In this document: in pieces, positions 23,550-63,333 of the stretch | Layout: each line of letters starts with the position of its first letter | Numbering within the stretch: the stretch's first letter is position 1 | Assembly (NCBI GenBank): GCA_026708055.1 | Contig: JAPOVS010000038.1 | Span: forward strand, 1 to 64,000 | DNA: 64,000 nucleotides | Source of the DNA: a bacterium | GTDB taxonomy: Bacteria > Actinomycetota > Acidimicrobiia > Acidimicrobiales > CATQHL01 | Reading direction: 5' to 3' | Program-made: the position numbers and the translations under genes | The notes under the pieces: generated by a model | What the model was told of the DNA's origin: nothing | Seen by the model: the letters and a program-made list of their open reading frames with translations, nothing else | The model's database searches: none

Positions 23550-25088
23550 GTGCCTCCGAAGCGAAGCGGCCGCCGCCGGGTGTGGATGGTCGCCCTGATC
23601 GCCGTCGCGGGCGTCCTGGCGACCTCGCTGGTCGCCGCCGCCGAGACAGGGCCGCAACTCCGGCTCCAAGCCCGCGTCCTGAGCAGCGGACAGACCGAGG
23701 TGGCACTGCAGCAACGCCTCGACGGCGGGCAGTGGGGCGACCGCCTGCTTCCCGCGCGGCGCCTCGTGCCGCCCGGCGCCCCGACCTGGCGCTGGGTCCA
23801 GAGCACGCCCCTGGAGGTGCAGACCGCTGCCGGCCCGCGGGAGATGCGCATCGCGGCCCGGCGCCCGGCCGGCGGCGGGCGCATCGAGGTTGGCCTCCAG
23901 CAGCGGCGCCCCGACGGCAGCTGGTCCGAAGTCATCCTGCCCGCCTTGCGGGTCGTGCCCGCGGGCGCCCTGGCGGGAAGGTGGCTGGCAAGCTCGCCGC
24001 TGCACGAGCCGGTGTTCCGGGAACAAGCGATGGAGGCAGGCCCCGCCGATCAACCCGACGACCCAAGCCCCGCCGACCAACCCGACGACCCAAGCCCCGC
24101 CGACCAACCCGACGACCCAGCCCCCGCCGACCAACCCGACGACCCAGCCCCCGCCGACCAACCCGACGACCCAGCCCCCGCCGACCAACCCGACGACCCA
24201 GCCCCCGCCGACCAACCCGACGACCCAGCCCCCGCCGACCAACCCGACGACCCAGCCCCCGCCGATCTGCCCCGCGCTCTGCTGACACCGACCGGCGTGC
24301 CGGTCGCCGTGATCGGGCGCGCCGGCGGCGGCTACCTGGTGCGCACGCCCTGCGGCAACGCCGCTGAGGTCACCGGCGGCGATCCCATCGACGGCATGCG
24401 GGTGGTGCTCGACCCCGGTCACGGCGGGCGGTTCGACGTCGGCGCCGTGGGGCCCAACGGTCTCGCCGAGGATGTGCTGAACCTCACCCTCAGCCGCGCC
24501 ATCCTCGCCGAACTCGCTCGCCGCGACATCCCCGCCGCCGCCGCCCGCACCGGCGACTACGGATCGCTCCTGTCCGTGCGCGCCGCCCTCGCCGACGCCG
24601 TGGGCGCCGACGCACTGATATCGCTCCACCACAACGCGCCGACTCACCGGCTCGGCGACTCGCCCGGCACCGAGGTCTACGTCCAGTCCGACGACGACGA
24701 GACGCCGCGGAGCGACTCGGCCCGCCTCGGGGGCCTGCTCTACGAGGAGATCACCACCGCACTCAGCATGTTCGCCGACGTCAGCTGGAGCCGCCTGCCC
24801 GACGCCGGCGTGCTGCGCGTGCTGTTCCCCTGGGGCGGCGACGCCTACGGCATGATCCGCCGGCCCGCGGTCCCGGCCGTCCTGGTGGAGTACGGCTACC
24901 TGTCGAACCCTTCCGAGGCGGAGCTGTTCGCCACCGACGACTACATCGGCATCGCCGCGACGGCCACTGCCAACGCCATCGAGGACTACCTCAACACGGA
25001 CCGCCCCGGCAGCGGGCTCGTCGAGCGGCCCCGGCGGTTCGATCCCGCCCGCGCGCCCAGCCGCTGCGCCGAGGTCCCCCTGGAGTGA
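23550..25088 (+). CDS. AmiC-type N-acetylmuramoyl-L-alanine amidase (Amidase_3)
   Basis: This is a 512-residue protein with a signal peptide (basic start, hydrophobic about 12-31). An N-terminal region of two related all-beta segments (LQARVLSSGQTEVALQQRLDGG and RIAARRPAGGGRIEVGLQQR regions, each shown in part) follows. Then come eight PADQPDDPx repeats (about 166-237) and a C-terminal zinc amidase domain. Zinc and catalytic residues are visible: His291 in DPGHGG, Glu307 in LAEDVLNL, His360 in SLHHNA and Glu447 in VEYGYL. It cleaves the amide between MurNAc and the stem peptide. The GTG 6 nt from its -10 is the chosen start. Confidence 0.92.
   Translation: MPPKRSGRRRVWMVALIAVAGVLATSLVAAAETGPQLRLQARVLSSGQTEVALQQRLDGGQWGDRLLPARRLVPPGAPTWRWVQSTPLEVQTAAGPREMRIAARRPAGGGRIEVGLQQRRPDGSWSEVILPALRVVPAGALAGRWLASSPLHEPVFREQAMEAGPADQPDDPSPADQPDDPSPADQPDDPAPADQPDDPAPADQPDDPAPADQPDDPAPADQPDDPAPADQPDDPAPADLPRALLTPTGVPVAVIGRAGGGYLVRTPCGNAAEVTGGDPIDGMRVVLDPGHGGRFDVGAVGPNGLAEDVLNLTLSRAILAELARRDIPAAAARTGDYGSLLSVRAALADAVGADALISLHHNAPTHRLGDSPGTEVYVQSDDDETPRSDSARLGGLLYEEITTALSMFADVSWSRLPDAGVLRVLFPWGGDAYGMIRRPAVPAVLVEYGYLSNPSEAELFATDDYIGIAATATANAIEDYLNTDRPGSGLVERPRRFDPARAPSRCAEVPLE
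24045..24260 (+). repeat. 27-bp coding tandem repeat, eight units
   Basis: Eight 27-bp units encode PADQPDDPS/A nonapeptides that form the spacer between the two halves of the amidase. The last six units are nearly identical, implying recent slippage or recombination. The absence of variable spacers excludes a CRISPR. Confidence 0.92.
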
Positions 25089-35753: not shown

Positions 35754-36118
35754 CCGCCTGCGGGGCTCTCGGCTCGCCACTCGTCGGCAATCACCAATCG
35801 GTGGCGCCTGGGGTCGGGGTGCCGCTCTGCTCCTCCACGCGGGGCGAAGAGTCGTCGCAGCCCGGTCCCCCGACCCCGGCCTCATCCCGCGTTCTTCCGC
35901 CACCCTCGTCCGTCTCGCAGCGGCCCGGGCAGGGACGCCAGTGGCGCTCCGGGACTGCAGGGTTTCAAAGCGGGCGCGGTCATACCGTGGATTCGTAGCA
36001 CAGCAGCTTGCGTACAAGTAGTGTAGCGAGACGTGAATTAGTAGTGCTGCAATACGTGGCATGGTAGCGTCAAGAGAGTGAGGCGCAGCCGAGTGCCGCG
36101 GGCGAGAGTACGGATCCG
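35754..36118. other. Intergenic region before the first DUF4143 ATPase
   Basis: The left part (35754-35990) is GC-rich with no gene; 35813-35905 weakly resembles 14417-14498. The right part is unusually AT-rich for this genome and carries the 23-bp iteron array and promoter of the ATPase. Confidence 0.6.
35994..36070 (+). promoter_or_regulatory. 23-bp iteron array and promoter of DUF4143 ATPase A1
   Basis: Units start AGTAGTG at 36017 and AGTAGTG at 36040, with GGTAGCG at 36063 and a poorer CGTAGCA at 35994, all exactly 23 bp apart. The last unit contains a -10 hexamer, TAGCGT (36065-36070). Confidence 0.6.
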
Positions 36119-36125
36119 ATGGTGA
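36078..36125 (+). CDS. Possible leaderless 15-codon leader peptide before ATPase A1
   Basis: GTG 36078 lies 7 nt after TAGCGT and opens a 15-codon, Arg-rich frame (VRRSRVPRARVRIRW). Its TGA (36123-36125) overlaps the ATPase ATG (36119). The ATPase itself lacks a ribosome site, so translation could be coupled through this leader. No homology is known. Confidence 0.35.
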   Translation: MRRSRVPRARVRIRW

Positions 36126-37408
36126 AGGCCGACAGCCGGGCGTACGTCCGGCGCGTCGTCGACGAGGAACTCGACGCGTTGCTGGACGGGCTGCCCGCCA
36201 TCTGCATCGAGGGGCCGCGTGCGGTCGGAAAAACGCGAACCGCTCGCCGGCGCGCCCGCACGGTGCACGATCTGGACGACCCCGAGACGCTGGCGCTGGC
36301 TCTGGCGGAACCCTCCCGCCTCGTCCGGGGAGCAGAACCGATCCTCATCGACGAATGGCAGCGCTATCCGCCCTCGTGGGACCTGGTGCGCCGAGCAGTG
36401 GACGACGACCCCCGGCCCGGTCGATTCCTGCTCACCGGTTCGACCGGGCCGGACGTGCCGCCGACCCACTCGGGCGCGGGCCGGATCGTCACCCTCCGAA
36501 TGCGACCCATGAGCCTCTTCGAACGAGGCTTGCAGGAGCCGACCGTGAGCCTTCGGCACCTGTTCACCAGCGACCGCCCGGCCGTCGACGGCCGGACCGA
36601 CGTTGCCCTCGATGACTACGTCGCGGAGATCGTCGGGGGCGGGCTGCCCGGATGGCGAGCGGGTGACGCCCGGACACGGCAGGCCGCACTCGACGGGTAC
36701 CTGAACCGCGCGGTCGACCACGACGTGGCATTGATGGGTTACCGGGCTCGACGGACGGGCGTGATGCGACGGTGGCTGACCGCATACGCCGCGGCCACCG
36801 CCACCACCGCCACTTACGAGACCATCCGCGACGCCGCCACAGGAGACGAGGGAGACAAGCCGGCCAAGACGACGACAATGGCCTACCGAGACCTGCTGGA
36901 GGTGATGTGGCTGGTGGATCCGGTGCACGCCTGGTGGCCCGTCGGCAACCCGCTGGGCCGGCTCAAACAGTCGCCCAAACACCATCTCGCCGATCCGGCG
37001 CTGGCATGTCGACTGCTGGAACTCGGCGCCGACGATCTCCGCGCCGCACACCCGGGCGCGACGGTCGACCTCCCGCGGAACCAACCGTTGCTTGGCGCCC
37101 TCTTCGAGTCGCTGGTCACCCTCGACGTGCGCGTCCACGCCCAGAACGCCGGGGCCGCCGTCAGCCACCTTCGGACCTGGAGCGACGACCGGGAAATCGA
37201 TCTGATCGTCTCGGCCGGTCGGCGACTCCTCGCAATCGAGGTCAAGCTGGCAGCCGTGCCCGACCGGCGCGACACCCGCCACCTCAGATGGTTCCGCGAT
37301 CAGGCCGCTCCCGATCCGGTGGACGCAATGATCATCACCACGGGCCGCTACGCCTACCGAGACCCCGACGGAATAGCCGTCGTCCCCGCGGCCCTCCTGG
37401 GCCCCTGA
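36119..37408 (+). CDS. AAA_14/DUF4143-type ATPase (A1)
   Basis: This is a 429-residue protein. Walker A is GPRAVGKT (32-39) and Walker B ILIDEW (75-80), with the sensor-type TGST and the family block HSGAGRIVTLRMRPMSLFE. The C-terminal DUF4143 part has PKHHLADPALA, LFESLV and a nuclease-like EIDLIV...AIEVKL pattern, ending VVPAALLGP. Related COG1373 ATPases are abundant, often multi-copy and of unknown role, and have been linked to mobile or defence regions. Two paralogues lie in the window (38168 and 60998). A1 differs by an extra Thr/Ala-rich segment near residue 220-250. Its upstream region holds a 23-bp iteron array. Confidence 0.88.
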   Translation: MVKADSRAYVRRVVDEELDALLDGLPAICIEGPRAVGKTRTARRRARTVHDLDDPETLALALAEPSRLVRGAEPILIDEWQRYPPSWDLVRRAVDDDPRPGRFLLTGSTGPDVPPTHSGAGRIVTLRMRPMSLFERGLQEPTVSLRHLFTSDRPAVDGRTDVALDDYVAEIVGGGLPGWRAGDARTRQAALDGYLNRAVDHDVALMGYRARRTGVMRRWLTAYAAATATTATYETIRDAATGDEGDKPAKTTTMAYRDLLEVMWLVDPVHAWWPVGNPLGRLKQSPKHHLADPALACRLLELGADDLRAAHPGATVDLPRNQPLLGALFESLVTLDVRVHAQNAGAAVSHLRTWSDDREIDLIVSAGRRLLAIEVKLAAVPDRRDTRHLRWFRDQAAPDPVDAMIITTGRYAYRDPDGIAVVPAALLGP

Positions 37409-37971: not shown

Positions 37972-38038
37972 TCCCCGAATCCAGCGTTTTCCGGCCGCAA
38001 GATCCCCGATTGGAGCATTCGGTATCGGCCACACAGCC

Positions 38039-38107
38039 TGTAATTCTTCGAGTGATATGACTGCAAACCTATGGGTGAAATCGCTGTAATTCTTCAAGTA
38101 GACTGGC
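38039..38107 (+). promoter_or_regulatory. 23-bp iteron array and promoter of DUF4143 ATPase A2
   Basis: TGTAATTCTTCGAGT (38039), TGCAAACCTATGGGT (38062) and TGTAATTCTTCAAGT (38085) start exactly 23 bp apart. The first and third match at 14 of 15 positions. A TAGACT -10 hexamer lies at 38099-38104 in the same phase. The leader before the ATG is about 57 nt. Confidence 0.7.
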
Positions 38108-38167: not shown

Positions 38168-39463
38168 ATGAGCATCCTGCCAGAGCACTTCGAGTACCGC
38201 AACCGGGTGGTCGACGCTGAGGCGGAGCGATTCCTGCGGCTGCTGCCCACCCTGGTCATCGAGGGCCCGCGTGGCTGCGGCAAGACCACGACGGCGCGCA
38301 GGCTGGCCGAACGGGAACTCCACCTCGAGACCGACCCGAGCGCGCGCGGCCACGCCGAGCACGGCACGCTTCCACTCGGTGACGGCCCCTACCCGTTGCT
38401 GATCGACGAGTGGCAGTTGGCGCCCGCTGCATGGAATGCGGTGCGTCATGCGAGTGACCTGCTCCAGGGGCCGGGCCGTTTCATCCTGACCGGCTCGGCC
38501 AGCCCTAGCGACGAGGTGACCCGCCACTCCGGAGCGGGCAGAGTCGCGCGCGTCCGGATGCGCCCGATGTCCCTCTTCGAGTCGAGTGACTCGACCGGTG
38601 ACGTGAGCCTCGGCGCCCTCCTCGACGGCGGATCGTGCTCGGCCCTGAACTCCCGTGAACATGACCCCAGAAATCCCGACACCCAGTTGCGCCGCGTCAT
38701 CGATGCCCTGTGCCGGGGAGGGTGGCCGGCTTGCGGCGACCTGTCACCTGCCGAGGCGCAGGAGTTCCTGCACCTCTACCTCGAGGAGTTGTGCCGCGTG
38801 GACGTTCGCAGGGTCGCGGGCACGCGGCACGATCCACTGCTGGTGCGCCGGGCGGTCACCTCGCTGGCGCGCAATACGGCTACCTCTCCCAGCAGCGCCA
38901 CGCTGGCGGCAGACATCGGTGTGCAACGCCCGGTCGCTCCCGACACCCTCGCCGGCTACCTCGACGCCCTGACCCGCAACTTCATTCTCGAGGACCAACC
39001 CGCATGGACTCCCCGGCTGCGCTCGCGCGCCCGCCTGCGGAGAGCCCCCAAACGTCACCTGGTAGACCCGGCCCTGGCCGTTTGCGCCCTCGGTGCCGGC
39101 CCGAGCCAACTGTTCAACGACCGGGAGACTCTCGGATTCCTGTTCGAGTCGCTGGCAGTCCGCGACCTGAGGGTCTACGCCGGGAGCGCCGGGGCGACCG
39201 TCTCCCACTATCACGACAGCAACCACCTCGAAGTGGACATCATCGTCCAGCGACGTGACGGGGCGTGGCTGGCCGCGGAAGTGAAGCTCGGCCGCCCGGC
39301 GGCCGTCGACCAAGCCGCCGACGCGCTGGCGCGGCTGCGCCGTCAGATAGACGTCGACCGCATGCCCGAGCCGGCAAAGCTGCTGGTCATCACTGCCACC
39401 GGGCACGCCTACGAACGCCCCGACGGCATCGCCGTGGCACCGCTGACCATGTTGGGCCCGTGA
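38168..39463 (+). CDS. AAA_14/DUF4143-type ATPase (A2)
   Basis: This is a 431-residue paralogue of A1 and A3. Walker A is GPRGCGKT (33-40) and Walker B LLIDEW (77-82), followed by LTGSASPSDE and HSGAGRVARVRMRPMSLFE. The DUF4143 half carries PKRHLVDPALAV, LFESLAVRDLRVY, LEVDIIV...AAEVKLG and ends VAPLTMLGP. A GAGGGG ribosome site lies 7 nt before the ATG. The C-terminal D...ExK arrangement resembles restriction-endonuclease folds. The function is unknown; the upstream iterons suggest self-regulation or a dedicated regulator. Confidence 0.88.
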   Translation: MSILPEHFEYRNRVVDAEAERFLRLLPTLVIEGPRGCGKTTTARRLAERELHLETDPSARGHAEHGTLPLGDGPYPLLIDEWQLAPAAWNAVRHASDLLQGPGRFILTGSASPSDEVTRHSGAGRVARVRMRPMSLFESSDSTGDVSLGALLDGGSCSALNSREHDPRNPDTQLRRVIDALCRGGWPACGDLSPAEAQEFLHLYLEELCRVDVRRVAGTRHDPLLVRRAVTSLARNTATSPSSATLAADIGVQRPVAPDTLAGYLDALTRNFILEDQPAWTPRLRSRARLRRAPKRHLVDPALAVCALGAGPSQLFNDRETLGFLFESLAVRDLRVYAGSAGATVSHYHDSNHLEVDIIVQRRDGAWLAAEVKLGRPAAVDQAADALARLRRQIDVDRMPEPAKLLVITATGHAYERPDGIAVAPLTMLGP

Positions 39464-39669: not shown

Positions 39670-42600
39670 ATGGATCAGCCTGCCGGTGCGAGGCGTGTTC
39701 CGGAGCGGCCGACTCTGGACGGGTTGGAGGCTCGGTGGGGGGAGTGGTGGGAGGCTGAGGGGGTCTACCGGTTCGACCGGCGCCGGGAGCGGTCGGAGGT
39801 GTTCTCGATCGACACGCCGCCGCCGACTGTCAGCGGTTCGCTGCACGTGGGGCATGTGTTCAGCTACACCCACACCGACCTCGTCGCCCGCTACCAGCGG
39901 ATGCGGGGGCGGGAGGTGTTCTACCCGATGGGCTGGGACGACAACGGCCTGCCCACCGAGCGCCGGGTGCAGAACTACTTCGGCGTCCGGTGCGACCCGT
40001 CGGTGCCGCACGACGATGATTTCCAGCCGCCCGCGGAGGCCACCGGTGAGCCGGTGCCGGTGGGCCGGCGGAACTTCATCGACCTGTGCCTTCAGCTCAC
40101 CGAAACCGACGAGCAGGCCTTCGAGAACCTCTACCGGCGCCTCGGCGTGTCGGTGGACTGGAGCCTGACCTACACGACGATCGGCGAGCGCTGCCGGCGG
40201 GTGTCACAGCGGGCCTTCCTGCGCAACCTGGCCCGCGGCGAGGCCTACCAGGCCGAGGCCCCGTGCCTGTGGGACGTCACGTTCCGGACCGCCGTGGCGC
40301 AGGCCGAATTGGAGGACCGCCCCCGCCAGGGCGCCCTGCACCGCCTGACCTTCGCCCGCGTGGGCTCGGCCGCCGGCGAGGGCAGTGCCGGCAGTGGGAA
40401 GGCCCGCGGGGACCCCGCCGACGACGGAGATGCCGGCGGGGGCAGCGGCACCGGCGGGAGCAGCGGGAACGGCGGCACCGGCGGGAACGGGCACGTCCTC
40501 ATCGAGACGACCCGGCCGGAGATGCTGGCCGCCTGCGTGGCGCTCGTGGCGCATCCCGACGACGAGCGTTACCGGCCGCTGTTCGGCTCGACGGTGCGCA
40601 CGCCGCTGTTCGGCGCCGAGGTGCCCGTGGTGGCACACGCCCTCGCCGAGCCCGGCAAGGGCACCGGCATCGCCATGATCTGCACCTTCGGCGACACCAC
40701 CGACGTCACCTGGTGGCGAGAGCTGGAACTGCCGGTGCGCCCCATCATGGGGCCCGGCGGGCGGCTCCTTCCCGAACTGCCCGACGCCGCCTGGGGCAGC
40801 GGCGCCCGGGCCGCCTACGCCGAGATCGCCGGGCTCACCGCGAACGCGGCCCGCCGGCGCATCACCGAACTCCTCGAGCAGTCCGGGGAACTCGTCGGGG
40901 AGCCGCGGCCCACCGAGCAAGCCGTGAAGTTCTTCGAGAAGGGCGACCGGCCGCTGGAGATCATCACCACCCGCCAGTGGTACCTCCGCAACGGCGGGCG
41001 CGACCTGCCGCTGCGCGCCGAACTGCTGGACCGCGGCGTGGAGTTGGCCTGGGTGCCGGACTTCATGCGCACCCGCTACAGCAACTGGGTGGAGGGTCTC
41101 AACGGCGACTGGCTGGTGAGCCGCCAACGCTGGTTCGGGGTGCCGATCCCCGTTTGGTACGCCCTCGACGGCGACGGGCGGCCGCAGTACGACCGGATGC
41201 TGGTACCCGCCGAGGCGTCACTGCCGATCGATCCCGCCTCCGACGCCCCGCCGGGCTACGAGGAGTCGCAGCGGGGCCGGCCGGGCGGGTTCATCGGCGA
41301 CCCCGACGTGATGGACACGTGGGCGACCTCGTCGCTCAGCCCGCAGATCGCCTGCGGCTGGGAGGAGGACCCCGACCTGTTCGCCCGCACCTTCCCGATG
41401 GACGTGCGCCCGCAGGCACACGAGATCATCCGCACCTGGCTGTTCTCCACGGTGGTGCGCGCCCACCTGGAGCACGACTCGTTGCCCTGGCGGCGGGCGG
41501 CCATCTCGGGGTGGGTGCTGGACCCCGACCGCAAGAAGATGTCCAAGTCGAAGGGCAACGTCGTCACGCCGATCGGGCTGCTGGAGACCTACGGCGCCGA
41601 CGCGGTGCGCTACTGGGCAGCCTGCGGGCGCCCCGGCACCGACACCGCCTTCGACGAGTCACAGATCAAGGTGGGCCGCCGCCTGGCCATCAAGCTCCTC
41701 AACGCCGCCCGCTTCGTCCTGGGCCTAGCGGGCGCCGCAACCGACGACGACCCGACGACCTCCACGGCCGCCGCCCGCTCCCCGTCATTCCGGCGCAGGC
41801 CGGAATCCACCGGCACCGACGACCAGGCCGGCGGCGCGGGCGACGTGACCGAGCCGATCGACCTGGCGCCCACTGACGGCGCCGACTCGACGACCTCCAC
41901 CACCGCCGCCCCCTCCCCGTCATTCCGGCGAAGGCCGGAATCCACCGGCACCGACGACCAGGCCGGCGGCGCGGGCGACGTGACCGAGCCGATCGACCTG
42001 GCGCCCACTGACGGCGCCGACTCGACGACCTCCACCACCGCCGCCCCCTCCCCGTCATTCCGGCGAAGGCCGGAATCCACCGGCACCGACGACCAGGCCG
42101 GCGGCGCGGGCGACGTGACCGAGCCGATCGACCTGGCGCCCACTGACGGCGCCGACTCGACGACCTCCACCACCGCCGCCCCCTCCCCGTCATTCCGGCG
42201 AAGGCCGGAATCCACCGGCGACGGTCCGACGACCGGTGCCGACGCCGTCACCGAGCCGATCGACCTGGCGCTGCTCGCCGGCGTGGGCGAACTCATCGAC
42301 GCCGCCACGGAGGCCTTCGAGGCCTTCGACTACGCCCGGGCGCTGGAGCGCACCGAGCGGCTCTTCTGGGACTTCACCGACGACTACGTGGAGCTGGTGA
42401 AGAACCGGGCCTACCGGGACGGCGCCGACGGGGCGAGCGCCCGGGCCGCCCTGCAGATCGCCCTGAGCGCCCTGCTGCGGCTGTTCGCACCCTTCCTTCC
42501 TTTCGCCTGCGAGGAGGCGTGGTCGTGGTGGCAGGAGGGCTCCATCCACCGGACGTCGTGGCCCGAGCGGGATGAACTGCCCGCCGAAGGCGACCCCGCC

Positions 42601-57726: not shown

Positions 57727-59273
57727 GGCGCGACGGCGGGGGCTCGCCGGACCCGGAGGTCGAGCCGCACCCGCGGCGCTGGTTGATCCTGTACATCCTG
57801 TGCCTGTCCCTGACGATGGTGGTCATCAGCATGAGCTCGCTGAACGTGGCCCTGCCGTCGATCCAGCGGGAGCTCGACGCCAGCGGGTCGGACCTGCAGT
57901 GGATCGTGGACGCCTACGTGCTGGTCTTCGCGGGCCTGCTGCTGCCGTTCGGGGCTCTCGGCGACCGCTGGGGACGCAAGCGGGTGCTGCTCGTCGGCAT
58001 GACCCTCTTCGGGGCGCTCTCCGCCCTCGCCGCCTTCTCGACGAGCCCGGCGCAGATCATCGTGTACCGGGCCGGCCTGGGGGTGGCGGCGGCGCTCGTC
58101 ATGCCCGCCACGCTGTCGATCGCCACGGTGATCTTCCCGCGCTCCGAGCGCCCCAAGGCGGTCGCCGTCTGGGCGGCGTTCGCCGGGGCGGGCGGTGCCA
58201 TCGGACCGCCGATCAGCGGGATCCTGCTCAACTTCTTCTGGTGGGGGTCGGTGTTCCTCGTGGCGGTGCCGGTGGCGGCCGTCGTCCTGATCGGCACCCT
58301 CTGGATCGTGCCGGAGTCCCAGGACGACGAGCGGCGGCCGCTGGACGTGGTCGGCGCGCTGGTGTCCATCGCCGCCCTGGGGAGCCTCCTGTTCGCGGTG
58401 ATCGAGGGCCCCGAACTCGGCTGGGGAAGCCCTCCGGTGCTGGGAATGTTCGCCGCCGCTGTCGTGCTGGTCTGGGGGTTCGTGCGCTGGGAGCGCCGCG
58501 TGCGCTATCCCATGCTCGACCCCGACTACTTCGGGAACCGCCTGTTCAGCCTGGGCGCGGCCAGCATCACGCTGGTGTTCTTCGGGATGGTCGGCATGTT
58601 CTTCGTGCTCACGCAGTACTTCCAGTTCGCGCAGGGACACACGCCGCTCGACGCCGGATTCCGCAACGTGCCGCTGGCGGCCACCATGATGATCCTGGCG
58701 CCGCGCAGCCCCGCCTTCACCCAGCGCTACGGCGCCCGCGCCTCGATCAGCGGCGGGCTCCTGCTCACCGGCGCCGGTCTGGGCATCATGGCCGCGCTCA
58801 CGCCGGCCACGCCCTACTGGATCATGGTCATCGCGCTGGTCACGACGGCGACCGGGCTGTCCCTGTTCATGCCGGCGTCGACGCACATCGTCGTGACGTC
58901 ACTGCCGAAGCACAAGGCCGGCGTGGGATCAGCCGTCAACGACACCACCCGGGAGGTCGGCGCAGCCATCGGCATCGCCGTGCTGGGCACGCTGCTGACG
59001 GTCGGCTACCGGGACGTGATGCGCTCACGAGTCGGCGGCCTGCCCGAGGCGGCGGCGGACACCGCCTCAGACTCCATCGGCGCCGCCCTGCGGATCGCTG
59101 GCGAACTGCCCGCTGAGCGCGCCGCCGCGCTGACCGAGAGCGCCGTCGACGCCTTCAACCGGGGCATGACCCTGGCCATGGGCGTATCCGCGGCGCTGCT
59201 GGCGCTGACCGCCGCGGGCACATACCTGCTCTACCCACGCGAGATAACCGGTGGCCGGCACCGGCAGGAATAG
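57723..59273 (+). CDS. MFS transporter, DHA2 (14-helix) family
   Basis: This is a 516-residue polytopic protein. LNVALPSIQRELDAS in helix 1, motif A-like GDRWGRKRVLL and the motif C-like region GAGGAIGPPISG mark it as a DHA2 drug:H+ antiporter. The substrate is not known. GTG 57723 overlaps the upstream stop. A fragment of a DUF4143 ATPase on the other strand directly abuts its 3' end. Confidence 0.9.
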   Translation: MRRDGGGSPDPEVEPHPRRWLILYILCLSLTMVVISMSSLNVALPSIQRELDASGSDLQWIVDAYVLVFAGLLLPFGALGDRWGRKRVLLVGMTLFGALSALAAFSTSPAQIIVYRAGLGVAAALVMPATLSIATVIFPRSERPKAVAVWAAFAGAGGAIGPPISGILLNFFWWGSVFLVAVPVAAVVLIGTLWIVPESQDDERRPLDVVGALVSIAALGSLLFAVIEGPELGWGSPPVLGMFAAAVVLVWGFVRWERRVRYPMLDPDYFGNRLFSLGAASITLVFFGMVGMFFVLTQYFQFAQGHTPLDAGFRNVPLAATMMILAPRSPAFTQRYGARASISGGLLLTGAGLGIMAALTPATPYWIMVIALVTTATGLSLFMPASTHIVVTSLPKHKAGVGSAVNDTTREVGAAIGIAVLGTLLTVGYRDVMRSRVGGLPEAAADTASDSIGAALRIAGELPAERAAALTESAVDAFNRGMTLAMGVSAALLALTAAGTYLLYPREITGGRHRQE

Positions 59274-59274
59274 T

Positions 59275-59532
59275 CTGCGAACTTCGCGGCTGCGCCGACC
59301 CCGTGAAGATGAAGAAGCCGTTGAGATGCCCGGAGTCCACTATGTGGCGGGCGCTGTTCCAGAGCCCCGGCGCCAGCTGCCACTCGTCCACCAGCCTGGG
59401 GCGGTCCCCCTCAAGCGTCTTGGCCGGCAGCAGGCGTGACGCGGCGCGGAGCTCGACGTCGTCGCCGAGGCGCACCTGGCTGCGCGCATGATTCAGGCCC
59501 GTCCACGTCTTGCCACAACCTCTGGTGCCCTC
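59275..59532 (-). pseudogene. Truncated DUF4143-type ATPase fragment
   Basis: On the minus strand the frame reads REGTRGCGKTWTGLNHARSQ (Walker A), then RLVDEWQLAPGLWNSARH (Walker B region) and FFIFTGSA. This matches residues of about 25-130 of the intact paralogues. Both ends are missing: the 3' side abuts the MFS gene and the 5' side joins a deacetylase fragment. Confidence 0.8.
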
Positions 59533-59635
59533 TCGCGCAGCGGCCCAGTCTCCTCGGGGCCGGAGCGGCTATCCCGCCTCGCCGCTGACCACGAGGGCGT
59601 AGCGGACATCCGGGCCCGCCGCAGTCCAGCGGGAC
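59533..59635 (-). pseudogene. Duplicated internal fragment of the PIG-L deacetylase gene
   Basis: About 100 bp here match 61648-61753 of the intact deacetylase gene in the same orientation (encoding SRWTAAGPDVRYALVVSGEAG-like sequence, given in part as DVRYALVVSGEAG). It joins the ATPase fragment at about 59533. Confidence 0.75.
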
Positions 59636-59744
59636 ACCGAAATCGGCCTCGGGGAAGCCGCCGACGCCAAGGGTCGATCAAGAGCAAGGTGCCGACCCCG
59701 AGATCCTCGAAGTTCTCGGTCCCGGTGCGGCGGCGGTGGAGGGG

Positions 59745-60998
59745 TCAGGGGCCGAGGGCGCCGATCGGGACGACCGCCACGCCGTCGCGGCGTTCGTGGC
59801 TGTAGTCGCCCACCGCGGTCACCACGATCAGCTTGGTCGGCTCGCCCGCGGCGACCGTGTCTACGCGGTCCCGTAGTTTGAGCAGGCTGCGGGCGGCTCC
59901 TTCGATCGCCGCGTCGCCGCCGAGTTTCACTTCGACCGCCAACCATTCGCCCGCCGCGGTCTCGAGGACCACGTCCACCTCCAGGCTGGTGTTGTCGCGG
60001 TAGTGGTAGACCTCGGCGTCGCAGGCATCCGCAAAGACCCGCAGGTCGCGCACCACCAGCGACTCGAACAGCAGGCCCAGGAACCCGAGATCGCGCCCGA
60101 GGCGTTCGGGCCCGGCGCGGAGTGCTGCCACCGCCAGCGACGGATCCACGAAGTGCCGCTTGCCGGCTCGGCGCAGGCGAGACCGCGACCTGAGGCGCGC
60201 GGACCAAGCGGGCTGGTCCTCGACGACGAAGACCCGCTCCAGTGCGTCGAGATAGGAGCGCACCGTGTCGCGGTGCAGCGGTTCGTCGCCGCCGGCGTCG
60301 GCGCACAGGCTCGCCAAGCTCGCCTCAGTGGAGGTATGGCGGGCCATCGATCTCAGCAGTCGCCGCATGGCCGCGGGGTTGCGGCGCGAACCGGTGGCCA
60401 AGCCCACGTCGATTCGAACGGTCTCCTCAAAGTAGTCCCGCACGTACTGTTGCGCCTCGGCCGGCGGACTGGTGCGGCGGGCCGGCCATCCGCCACGACA
60501 GAGCGCTTCAATCACGTCGGTGAGGCCGATGCCGCTGGCCTGACCCGCGACGCGCTCGGAGGCCAGCAGGCTGCGCAGCGACACCGAGCCGTTGGAGAGG
60601 CCCGTCTCGTACAGCGTCATCGGACGCAGCCGGATCCTGGAGATTCGCCCGGCGCCGCTGTGCCTGATCTCGTCGTCAGCAGGCACCGCGGAACCCGTAA
60701 GGATGAAGCATCCCGCCCGTCCCCTGGTGTCGCTGGCGCGACGCACATGATTCCAGAGCGGCGGCACATGCTGCCACTCGTCGAGCAGTCGGGGCTCGGG
60801 ACCGTTCAGGATCGCATCAGGGTCGAGTTCGGCCAGTGCGCGGGCCCGGCTGTCGGTGTCGAACCGCACCTCGCTCTGCGCCCGTTGCCGAGCGCTCTCG
60901 GTCTTGCCCACGCCTCGGGCACCCTCCAGAACCACTGTCGGAGAGGACCGGAGGCGAGAAGCCATGATGTCGTCGACCACCCTTGGGGCATAGCCCAT
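59745..60998 (-). CDS. AAA_14/DUF4143-type ATPase (A3)
   Basis: This is a 417-residue paralogue of A1 and A2. Walker A is GARGVGKT (26-33) and Walker B RLLDEW (70-75), followed by LTGSAVPADDEIRHSGAGRI (family block). The DUF4143 half has KRHFVDPSLAV, LLFESLVVRDLRVF, LEVDVVL...AVEVKLG and ends VVPIGALGP. ATG 60998 is chosen because TACGCT (61005-61010) lies 6 nt upstream with a TTGCAG -35 at 17 bp; the frame is open further upstream but would include the promoter. The iteron array is upstream. The function is unknown. Confidence 0.88.
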   Translation of the reverse strand: MGYAPRVVDDIMASRLRSSPTVVLEGARGVGKTESARQRAQSEVRFDTDSRARALAELDPDAILNGPEPRLLDEWQHVPPLWNHVRRASDTRGRAGCFILTGSAVPADDEIRHSGAGRISRIRLRPMTLYETGLSNGSVSLRSLLASERVAGQASGIGLTDVIEALCRGGWPARRTSPPAEAQQYVRDYFEETVRIDVGLATGSRRNPAAMRRLLRSMARHTSTEASLASLCADAGGDEPLHRDTVRSYLDALERVFVVEDQPAWSARLRSRSRLRRAGKRHFVDPSLAVAALRAGPERLGRDLGFLGLLFESLVVRDLRVFADACDAEVYHYRDNTSLEVDVVLETAAGEWLAVEVKLGGDAAIEGAARSLLKLRDRVDTVAAGEPTKLIVVTAVGDYSHERRDGVAVVPIGALGP

Positions 60999-61004
60999 AC
61001 AGCG

Positions 61005-61033
61005 AGCGTAGGGTCGCCGAACACATTCTGCAA
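61005..61033 (-). promoter_or_regulatory. Promoter of ATPase A3, leaderless
   Basis: TTGCAG (-35, 61028-61033), a 17-bp spacer and TACGCT (-10, 61005-61010) end 6 nt before ATG 60998. The -35 is itself part of the first iteron. Confidence 0.75.
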
Positions 61034-61102
61034 CACTTCGGACCAACGTTCTGCAACTATTGCAACCGTCACTCTGCAATAGTTTGAACCAGCATTCTGC
61101 AA
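61028..61102 (-). promoter_or_regulatory. 23-bp iteron array upstream of ATPase A3, four units
   Basis: TTGCAG (CTGCAA on plus) starts at 61028, 61051, 61074 and 61097, exactly 23 bp apart, each followed by a GGTyC-type half (consensus TTGCAGAAyG then TGGTyC). The unit nearest the gene provides the -35. Confidence 0.85.
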
Positions 61103-61125
61103 CACTGCTGCGCCGGAGACAGCGC

Positions 61126-61926: not shown

Positions 61927-62952
61927 GTGACGGTTCTGGCCCCGCCGCCGGCGGGGCCTTCGATTCGGGATGCCGAGCGCGCCGCGGAGGCGTTGGCGGA
62001 GGCGGGGGTTCCGGTGGTGCTGCTGCACGGGTCGGTGGCGCGAGGCGAGCAGCACGCCGACAGCGACATCGACATGGTGGCGGTGCTGGACGACTTGGAC
62101 TACTCCGACCGCTGGCGGCGGCGGTACGAGTTGGAGACACTGGCTTCTGAGGCCGCAGGGTGGCCGGTGGAGGTGTTCGTGACCGACCGCCCGGAGTGGC
62201 GCCACCGCAGCCTGCGGGTGCGCACATCGTTCGAGGCGGGCATCGCTCCTGCGGCGGTCGTGATGCGCGAGCTGCCGCCGGATGGCGTGGACTGGACCAA
62301 GGAGATCGGCATGCCCGCCAGCGACTTCGATGAGGCAGCGGCCTCGCTGCAGAACACGAACCAGGGCCTCAGCGAACTTCGCAACGAACTCGAGCCGGGC
62401 GGCAGCGAAACAGAAGCGCACGCCGCGGGCGACGCGCTCGATTATTCAGTCGAGGTTGCAGGTCGCTTGAGGGGCGTGTGTTCCCGGTCGCAGTCGGCGA
62501 TGGAGAACTCACTGAAGGCCTTGGTGCATCTGTACGCCGACGAGGCTCCCGGGAAGGCGCACTCCCTGAATGGACTGGCGCACAGGATTCCCCAGCGGCT
62601 GCGGCCCGATGTCGCCGATGCGACGGCGGGCCTCGACCTGCCTGAGGTCTCGAAGTGGCGTCAGAGGGGCACCTACCCGGCGGACTTTCCGGACACGCCC
62701 CTAGAGGACCTGGTCGTCGCCGCCCACGCCTTCGCCTCGGCGGCGTGCGCCCTCGGCAGGCTGGCCGCGCAGCACGTCGCCGCCGCCGCGCCCGCCACGC
62801 CAGCGGGGACGCGCCCCGCTGCGGGCGCCGCGGACTGGGAGGCGGCGAGAGCGGCGAGGCTCTGCGCAGGAATCGAGTCGGTCCTGGCGGGCTGGGACCT
62901 TGCGCGGGACACGCCGACGGCGCAGATGGGGATACCCGAGCCTCCCGAATAG
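61927..62952 (+). CDS. MNT-type nucleotidyltransferase fused to a HEPN-like domain
   Basis: This is a 341-residue protein. The N-terminal minimal nucleotidyltransferase motif is GSVARG (35-40) with DSDID (Asp47 and Asp49) as metal ligands. The C-terminal half (about 175-290) is helical with HEPN-like blocks (SQSAMENSLKALVHLYAD and KAHSLNGLAHRI). MNT and HEPN proteins usually form two-gene toxin-antitoxin pairs (MntA-HepT), or are fused in some resistance-type NTases. The RNase motif R-x4-6-H is not evident, so the HEPN part may bind substrate and not cut RNA. It neighbours ATPase A3. Confidence 0.78.
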   Translation: MTVLAPPPAGPSIRDAERAAEALAEAGVPVVLLHGSVARGEQHADSDIDMVAVLDDLDYSDRWRRRYELETLASEAAGWPVEVFVTDRPEWRHRSLRVRTSFEAGIAPAAVVMRELPPDGVDWTKEIGMPASDFDEAAASLQNTNQGLSELRNELEPGGSETEAHAAGDALDYSVEVAGRLRGVCSRSQSAMENSLKALVHLYADEAPGKAHSLNGLAHRIPQRLRPDVADATAGLDLPEVSKWRQRGTYPADFPDTPLEDLVVAAHAFASAACALGRLAAQHVAAAAPATPAGTRPAAGAADWEAARAARLCAGIESVLAGWDLARDTPTAQMGIPEPPE

Positions 62953-62987
62953 CCCGTTTTGCTAGCGCAGGACTCGCCGGTAACATT

Positions 62988-63039
62988 CTGCAACACTTGA
63001 GACCAACATTCCGCAAACTTTGCAACCGGGATTCTGCAA
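62988..63039 (-). repeat. Orphan 23-bp iteron array, a decayed copy of the A3 promoter
   Basis: TTGCAG or TTGCGG starts at 62988, 63011 and 63034 (23-bp steps), with flanks matching the A3 array. Continuing left on the minus strand, GGCGA and CGCT blocks and GGGCTATTC align with the A3 -10 and MGYA start. The start codon is ACG in place of ATG and the frame is then lost. Confidence 0.75.
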
Positions 63040-63157
63040 CATTCTGGGTTTCTCCCGCTTGTTCGGCACCACCACACCCCGCCGATACCCAAGCGCCCGA
63101 TCACGGTCCCAGCGCCGTGAGGGGGAGCACGGTGCGTCACAGGACATTCGAGCAGGC

Positions 63158-63272
63158 AGTCGCCCTGTAAAGCCCATATTGCAGGCAATCCACCGCCCAC
63201 TTTGCCGGCAATCTACTGTCCACTTTATGGGTGCTGTAGGCCCCATGTTGAGGGGCGATTGGAACCCAGATT
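63158..63272 (-). repeat. Second orphan 23-bp iteron array, five units
   Basis: Five units of exactly 23 bp end to end (63158, 63181, 63204, 63227 and 63250). Read on minus, they begin AAAGTGGAC, AAAGTGGGC, AATATGGGC, AACATGGGG and AATCTGGG. The two central units share 18 of 23 positions. No ATPase gene follows. It could instead be the end of a lost insertion sequence. Confidence 0.7.
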
Positions 63273-63333
63273 GCAGATCTCGGTCAGCCTGGCCGCAGGA
63301 CGCTCTGCCCGCGGCGCCGGCCGGGGCGGCGGG

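Follow-up and report, generated by a model that had tools for sequence, protein, structure and literature searches.

What reads the array of 23-bp iterons that lies in front of a DUF4143 ATPase gene in this genome, and does the array control that gene? The array occupies positions 61023–61106 (minus strand) of the window, the 64-kb stretch of DNA analysed here, and is the putative operator of the gene to its left. Inspection of the sequence placed its CTGCAA cores (TTGCAG on the minus strand) at 61028, 61051, 61074 and 61097, in agreement with the original prediction of four cores spaced 23 bp apart. The further proposal that the proximal core doubles as the −35 box of a TTGCAG-17-TACGCT promoter was borne out on the minus strand: the last iteron core (−35 box TTGCAG, 61033–61028) is followed by 17 bp and the −10 box TACGCT (61010–61005), and 6 nt separate the end of this predicted promoter (61005–61033, minus strand) from the ATG at 60998. 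Judged from its sequence, it has the layout of a leaderless actinobacterial promoter. Because the window array precedes the predicted transcript start, we dropped the reading of the array as a transcribed RNA element. Two related proposals held for this array but not throughout the family: the period equals the −35 to −10 distance here and in some, but not all, relatives, and the phasing of the array with the promoter seen here does not hold generally. A search of the whole 3.9-Mb genome for exact CTGCAA-N17-CTGCAA pairs returned the three overlapping pairs of the window array and two further pairs at C81:13535–13586, which precede another DUF4143 gene; the reversed control pattern had no match in the same 3.9 Mb. 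The gene itself (59745–60998, minus strand) is intact and encodes a 417-residue AAA_14-wHTH-DUF4143 ATPase-nuclease of the PDC-S01 type with the Walker A motif GARGVGKT. A decayed N-terminal fragment of another DUF4143 gene lies at 59179–59592 (minus strand); its nearest relative is the CTGCAA-array gene at C81:12214–13458.

The window was scanned by log-odds at lags 14–32 with a threshold of at least 16 bits, lags divisible by 3 being set aside owing to coding periodicity. Exactly five arrays were found at lag 23 and two at lag 14, with none at lags 16, 17, 19, 20, 22, 25, 26, 28, 29, 31 and 32. None of 1000 dinucleotide shuffles matched the lag-23 score of any of the five arrays; when any lag from 12 to 35 was allowed, 0/200, 0/200 and 3/200 shuffles matched the scores of the three arrays at genes. 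Besides the array at 61028, these are an array of GTAGTG... units at 36017–36070 (scored part 36017–36067; plus strand), belonging to the intact AAA_14-DUF4143 ATPase-nuclease gene at 36119–37408 (plus strand), and an array with CTGTAA/CTGCAA cores at 38038–38107 (scored part 38038–38093; plus strand), belonging to a second such gene at 38168–39463 (plus strand). Both are genuine and weaker than the 61028 array. All three intact DUF4143 ATPase genes of the window thus carry an array, as had been claimed, and two orphan arrays, absent from the original prediction, occur besides. The first orphan (62967–63043, minus strand) is homologous to the 61028 array, has the same orientation and has no DUF4143 gene beside it; the second (63172–63273, no strand assigned) is built of a different unit and has a counterpart array in the relative L323. 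No intact DUF4143 gene was found for either.

The same period recurs throughout this genome. It contains 47 DUF4143 matches, 39 of them with a readable Walker A motif, and comparison of lags 8–45 in the 260 bp upstream of these 39 genes gave lag 23 as the best in 25. Averaged over all 39 genes, 26.3 of 46 positions matched at lag 23, against 17–20 at every other lag. Comparison of the units confirmed that each array has its own sequence while the period stays the same. We then considered 1.22 Mb of stretches from contigs picked for their DUF4143 genes, so that the array rate obtained is that of an enriched sample. Lag 23 yielded 25 hits at a threshold of 16 bits and 18 at a threshold of 25 bits; for eighteen other single-period lags the corresponding numbers were 0–10 and 0–5, and the double period, lag 46, was also prominent. 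By position, the majority of the 25 hits lie directly upstream of DUF4143 genes, the hit at C23:85916 and two at C56:48509–48699 adjoin decayed DUF4143 genes, and two are the orphan arrays of the window. Set aside as unrelated were a perfect three-copy repeat within a reading frame (C75:114021) and a poly-C tract (C50:42459). Units of CCATCGCGGTT at a 23-bp lag (C59:55791–55868, L087) precede a reading frame without DUF4143 and look unrelated as well.

The number of these genes reflects a strong lineage-specific DUF4143 expansion: several same-genus genomes have 2–11 DUF4143 matches and most of the order have none, against 47 here. No two array-bearing paralogues exceed 63% identity, which suggests that the expansion grew by import instead of recent duplication.

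Across at least ten bacterial phyla, genes of this family nearly always carry an array just upstream. A scan of genome contigs supplied 80 homologues, 76 of them with sufficient upstream DNA, from Acidimicrobiia and other Actinomycetota, Gamma- and Deltaproteobacteria, Gemmatimonadota, Rhodothermales, Nitrospirales, Cyanobacteria, Elusimicrobia, Chloroflexi, Spirochaetes, Acidobacteria and Bacillota. This 76-locus set derives from a closer alignment, a 29-sequence alignment having proved too diverse, and it leans to the cluster of the window gene; the array loci compared are all bacterial, and the family is enriched in archaea. Arrays consist of three to five direct repeats with a spacing of exactly 23 bp, or of 22 bp in some branches. 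The original prediction of 23-bp enrichment upstream of homologues, already apparent in this genome, was thereby confirmed in divergent homologues: lag 23 was the best of lags 12–35 in 72 of the 76, with a mean of 30.1/46 matches; other lags averaged 17–19, and lag 23 averaged 17.65 in 343 control windows drawn from these loci. A score of 26/46 matches or more was reached by 64/76 upstream regions and by 0/343 controls. An array of 14 bits was present at lag 23 in 70/76 loci, whereas lags 20, 21, 22, 24, 25 and 26 gave such arrays in 1, 1, 1, 4, 0 and 0 loci. The register is maintained at lag 46 in 53 of the loci and at lag 69 in 22. The median array comprises about 3.5 units and spans −127 to −48 relative to the start. 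Collectively, these data demonstrate that the array exists, that its period is exactly 22/23 bp, where it lies and that it is linked to the family. Culturable carriers include Bacteroides ovatus (a plasmid copy with 43/46 matches at lag 23), B. uniformis pBUN1, Collinsella aerofaciens, Prosthecochloris aestuarii, Lentilactobacillus hilgardii, and Actinomyces oris, Azotobacter salinestris and Mycobacterium riyadhense plasmids; the Thermus pHC11 and Aminobacter copies have no array.

The precise period depends on the branch of the family. When the proteins were clustered into subfamilies, 71 of 78 genes in the large cluster that contains the window gene had 23-bp arrays (random windows give arrays at about 1%). 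In a second cluster 18/32 had 23-bp and 10 had 22-bp arrays, in a third 13/18 had 23-bp and 3 had 24-bp arrays, and in a small cluster 4/5 had 22-bp arrays. Rhizobial, Agrobacterium, Sphingomonas and Marinobacter copies display the 22-bp form, in which TTGGACG is a frequent core. Because 22 or 23 bp follows the protein clusters, the period is a trait of the protein lineage. A cluster with GPRQSGKT-type Walker motifs had arrays in 0/14 members, and several small subclades in the protein clustering also lack one; for this reason the array is dispensable for some members. Individual 22-bp arrays were noted on alphaproteobacterial and Marinobacter plasmids (L292, L294, L297, L298, L301, L302 and L303), with cores that are often TTGGACG or TTTCAA-TGGTCAT.

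The sequence of the array is private to each gene and yet inherited with its protein. Among 123 arrays, motif similarity rose with protein identity from 0.23 at 25–30% through 0.31 at 60–65% and 0.48 at 70–80% to 0.70 above 90%, while the reverse-complement control stayed at 0.22–0.32 throughout. In pairs of 65–70% identity, the array was more conserved than its flanks in 42 and less conserved in 7. The unit of the window array is almost identical to that of a Gammaproteobacterial MAG (TTGCAGAA followed by GGTT-AAACTA), the two proteins being 56% identical. Arrays of paralogues within this genome differ about as much as those of unrelated members. Among paralogue pairs of 50–55% identity, 0/51 had similar arrays where about 1 was expected, which makes this an underpowered test of insulation. 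These comparisons demonstrate that the array sequence is gene-specific and conserved with the protein, so that the idea of an ATPase with a private operator is well supported. A gene-specific array that tracks the protein suggests, at the level of sequence, that each protein may read and control its own promoter. Protein columns tracked the motif with a best r of 0.17, compared with 0.09 in the reverse-orientation control, which is too weak to name the reading domain; the weak covariation signals are spread over the nuclease hairpin (residues 328–342), the helix 362–378 and position 244.

The confident AlphaFold model of the window protein (pLDDT 95.5, pTM 0.94) predicts an AAA+ core, a helical lid, a winged helix (helices 208–220, 228–235 and 243–255, wing 259–283) and a C-terminal PD-(D/E)XK domain. 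The fold comparison of the whole protein spans residues 1–327, and the nuclease part was folded and searched separately. Residues 1–294 resemble the archaeal STAND NTPases PABY2304 (2qen; Z 14.8, rmsd 4.2, 252 aligned residues) and SSO1545 (2fna; Z 13.2, rmsd 4.6, 248 aligned), as well as CED-4 and plant NLRs (Z about 12); the AAA+ core, lid and winged helix of the model correspond to those of NB-ARC/STAND proteins. Unlike in these proteins, a C-terminal PD-(D/E)XK domain replaces the repeat sensor. The closest match of this domain alone is McrC (Z 10.8, rmsd 2.7, 112 aligned), followed by the immune nucleases Can2, Card1 and NucC. Glu340, Asp342, Glu356 and Lys358 are invariant in 64 sequences; with both the fold and the E-x-D...E-x-K residues of PD-(D/E)XK enzymes present, the predicted nuclease is intact. 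The model thus describes a predicted STAND-like ATPase of the AAA+ class that contains a winged helix and whose PD-(D/E)XK nuclease is intact. All proteins tested match the PADLOC PDC-S01 models (best-model E 1e-59 to 1e-176), and the PDC-S01 profile matches over the full length (residues 2–413 of 415, E 1.9e-73). A phmmer search against solved structures gave no match for the DUF4143 ATPase-nuclease, and NCBIfam assigns no family to it.

What, then, is the array for? We regard it as probable that it is a private multi-site operator bound by the product of its own gene, most likely acting as a cooperative autorepressor at the promoter; self-regulation is the best inference. The ATPase-nuclease, with its AAA+ core, winged helix and PD-(D/E)XK domain, would bind the repeats side by side, one protomer or dimer per 23 bp, and three to five units reaching the −35/−10 region would most likely close the promoter. 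The promoter would reopen when the protein becomes scarce, is drawn away or is rearranged, for example during phage infection. Binding by the gene's own product, cooperative assembly, and repression instead of activation are the parts that we infer; activation is possible. The sites overlap the core promoter, and those of Rhizobium come within 8 bp of the start codon. Among the annotated neighbours of 20 plasmid loci, no partner is common to most loci; the ATPase is therefore the only factor always linked to the array. Against binding by the ATPase, the winged helices of STAND proteins often do not bind DNA.

An extension of this scheme, which we consider unlikely, would make the system a one-gene immune sensor, with the array as its assembly platform and its safety catch; the protein row would silence the gene and hold the nuclease inactive until phage takeover releases both. 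ATPases would line up on their private 23-bp sites at about 2.2 helical turns per unit, and each step would therefore be turned by 60–70 degrees, like neighbours in five- or six-fold AAA+ spirals. Takeover of the DNA or of transcription by a phage would break the row and free both promoter and nuclease. If so, dozens of insulated units could coexist per genome.

We also consider it unlikely that the arrays are operators of another regulator, co-encoded or host-encoded, that controls the ATPase gene. Small separate regulators with direct-repeat operators do exist in defence loci, as exemplified by RptR (PMC12255303), and a small HTH gene adjoins the DUF4143 gene in Collinsella, Sinorhizobium chiapasense and L. 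hilgardii. Such a regulator is, however, not apparent as a common neighbour in most of the 20 annotated loci, and a single host factor can account neither for unrelated arrays before about 25 genes of one genome nor for a unit that is common to two phyla and tracks the ATPase. RptR, a 79-residue autorepressor of an Escherichia coli defence island (PMC12255303), demonstrates that direct-repeat autorepression occurs in such islands, but the protein and its site are unrelated to those described here. In both cases direct repeats lie over the gene's own core promoter, three of them over the −10 region for RptR. RptR is a separate four-helix repressor that recognizes one conserved 6-bp palindrome, TAGCTA, whereas the candidate binder here is the 417-residue ATPase-nuclease itself and the units are 22–23 bp long with a gene-specific sequence; their cores (TTGCAA, TTGGACG, AATCCCTACA and others) differ from TAGCTA.

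A further alternative, on which the locus comparison bears, sees the array primarily as a site of recombination or insertion (att-like or transposon-end-like) for a mobile ATPase module and secondarily as part of the promoter. A segment of 1.87 kb (59243–61112, no strand assigned), containing the DUF4143 fragment, the intact gene and the array, is absent from the same site in two same-genus relatives, L325 and L326, in which the left gene directly joins PIG-L and then metH; no DUF4143 gene or array was found there. The array forms the right edge of the segment to within about 10 bp, and two arrays of the same sequence and orientation flank the PIG-L and nucleotidyltransferase-HEPN genes. The notion of a mobile module thus stands as far as the empty site is concerned; on the other hand, neither a mobility gene (a linked integrase or transposase) nor a target duplication was seen in the comparison. 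Moreover, the array occurs 5′ only, control windows with downstream sequence showing none, and about 600 bp downstream of the orphan at C23:85916 lies a decayed DUF4143 C-terminus, as expected of a promoter remnant. We therefore judge an insertion site to be a distinctly improbable explanation; the comparison shows gain and loss but no transposition mechanism.

Traces of loss were found at further sites. At the locus of the 62967 orphan, an internal deletion in L323 has joined the array to a remnant with 95% DNA identity to the 3′ end of the gene. In L324, an array of 80 bp closely resembling the window array lies beside a decayed gene. Given the decayed genes near orphans and the fused remnant, orphan arrays are best read as tombstones. 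Arrays that outlast their genes can be used to trace lost copies.

That the repeats are slippage-derived minisatellites or repeated −10/−35 elements without a dedicated binder is barely credible: the period does equal one hexamer plus a 17-bp spacer and a −10-like TAnnnT occurs in some units, but only parts of the units are kept while the period is base-exact in at least ten phyla, other promoters of the genome (1.22 Mb) lack it, alphaproteobacterial relatives have a 22-bp period, in many cases with a TTGGACG core, and array conservation tracks the protein.

Direct repeats of about two helical turns with an autoregulatory function are known beside the winged-helix Rep genes of iteron plasmids. 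The autoregulatory operators proposed here share with them this repeat length and the adjoining winged-helix protein gene; they differ in being mostly chromosomal and in that the protein is an ATPase-nuclease. Neither a replication gene nor an origin was recognized at the window locus, and no rep gene was recognized at the inspected loci on chromosome-scale contigs. The arrays also differ from CRISPR arrays, as their degenerate 23-bp units are contiguous, with no alternation of repeat and spacer. PDC-S01, the PADLOC phage-defence candidate whose models the proteins match, is an arCOG03166-like AAA+ ATPase fused to an HTH and a nuclease. In PMC12988326, this ATPase–PD-(D/E)XK fusion is listed as a candidate and ranked fourth in frequency among prokaryotic defences, and most PDCs, PDC-S01 included, are said to still await validation. 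The PDC-S01 literature found contains no mention of a promoter array. In line with the original prediction, we found no described 23-bp operator for the family in open-access PMC articles, preprints excluded. We group the arrays with direct-repeat autoregulatory operators, as an apparently new form with an unusually broad base. They offer a first handle on a common candidate defence family, giving each of thousands of proteins a predicted binding site, and the natural protein–operator pairs make it possible to learn how specificity is encoded. Private arrays may also explain how about 40 paralogues per genome exist without cross-regulation.

Several minor features were observed alongside. An NTP_transf_2-HEPN fusion gene (nucleotidyltransferase plus HEPN; 61928–62952) lies near the window copy, between PIG-L and metH, which are joined directly in L325 and L326; PMC12988326 gives this architecture for the candidate defence PDC-M05. 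A CRISPR Cas3 gene adjoins the A. oris copy. Elsewhere in the window, 41748–42271 contains four tandem 135-bp units with CCCGTCATTCCGGCGAAGGCCGGAATCCA, a REP-like inverted repeat, and similar sequences occur upstream of other DUF4143 genes (L002 and L024). A nearly perfect 27-bp tandem repeat of 8.5 copies lies at 24037–24265, and 336-bp repeats (2.7 copies) occupy 47–950.
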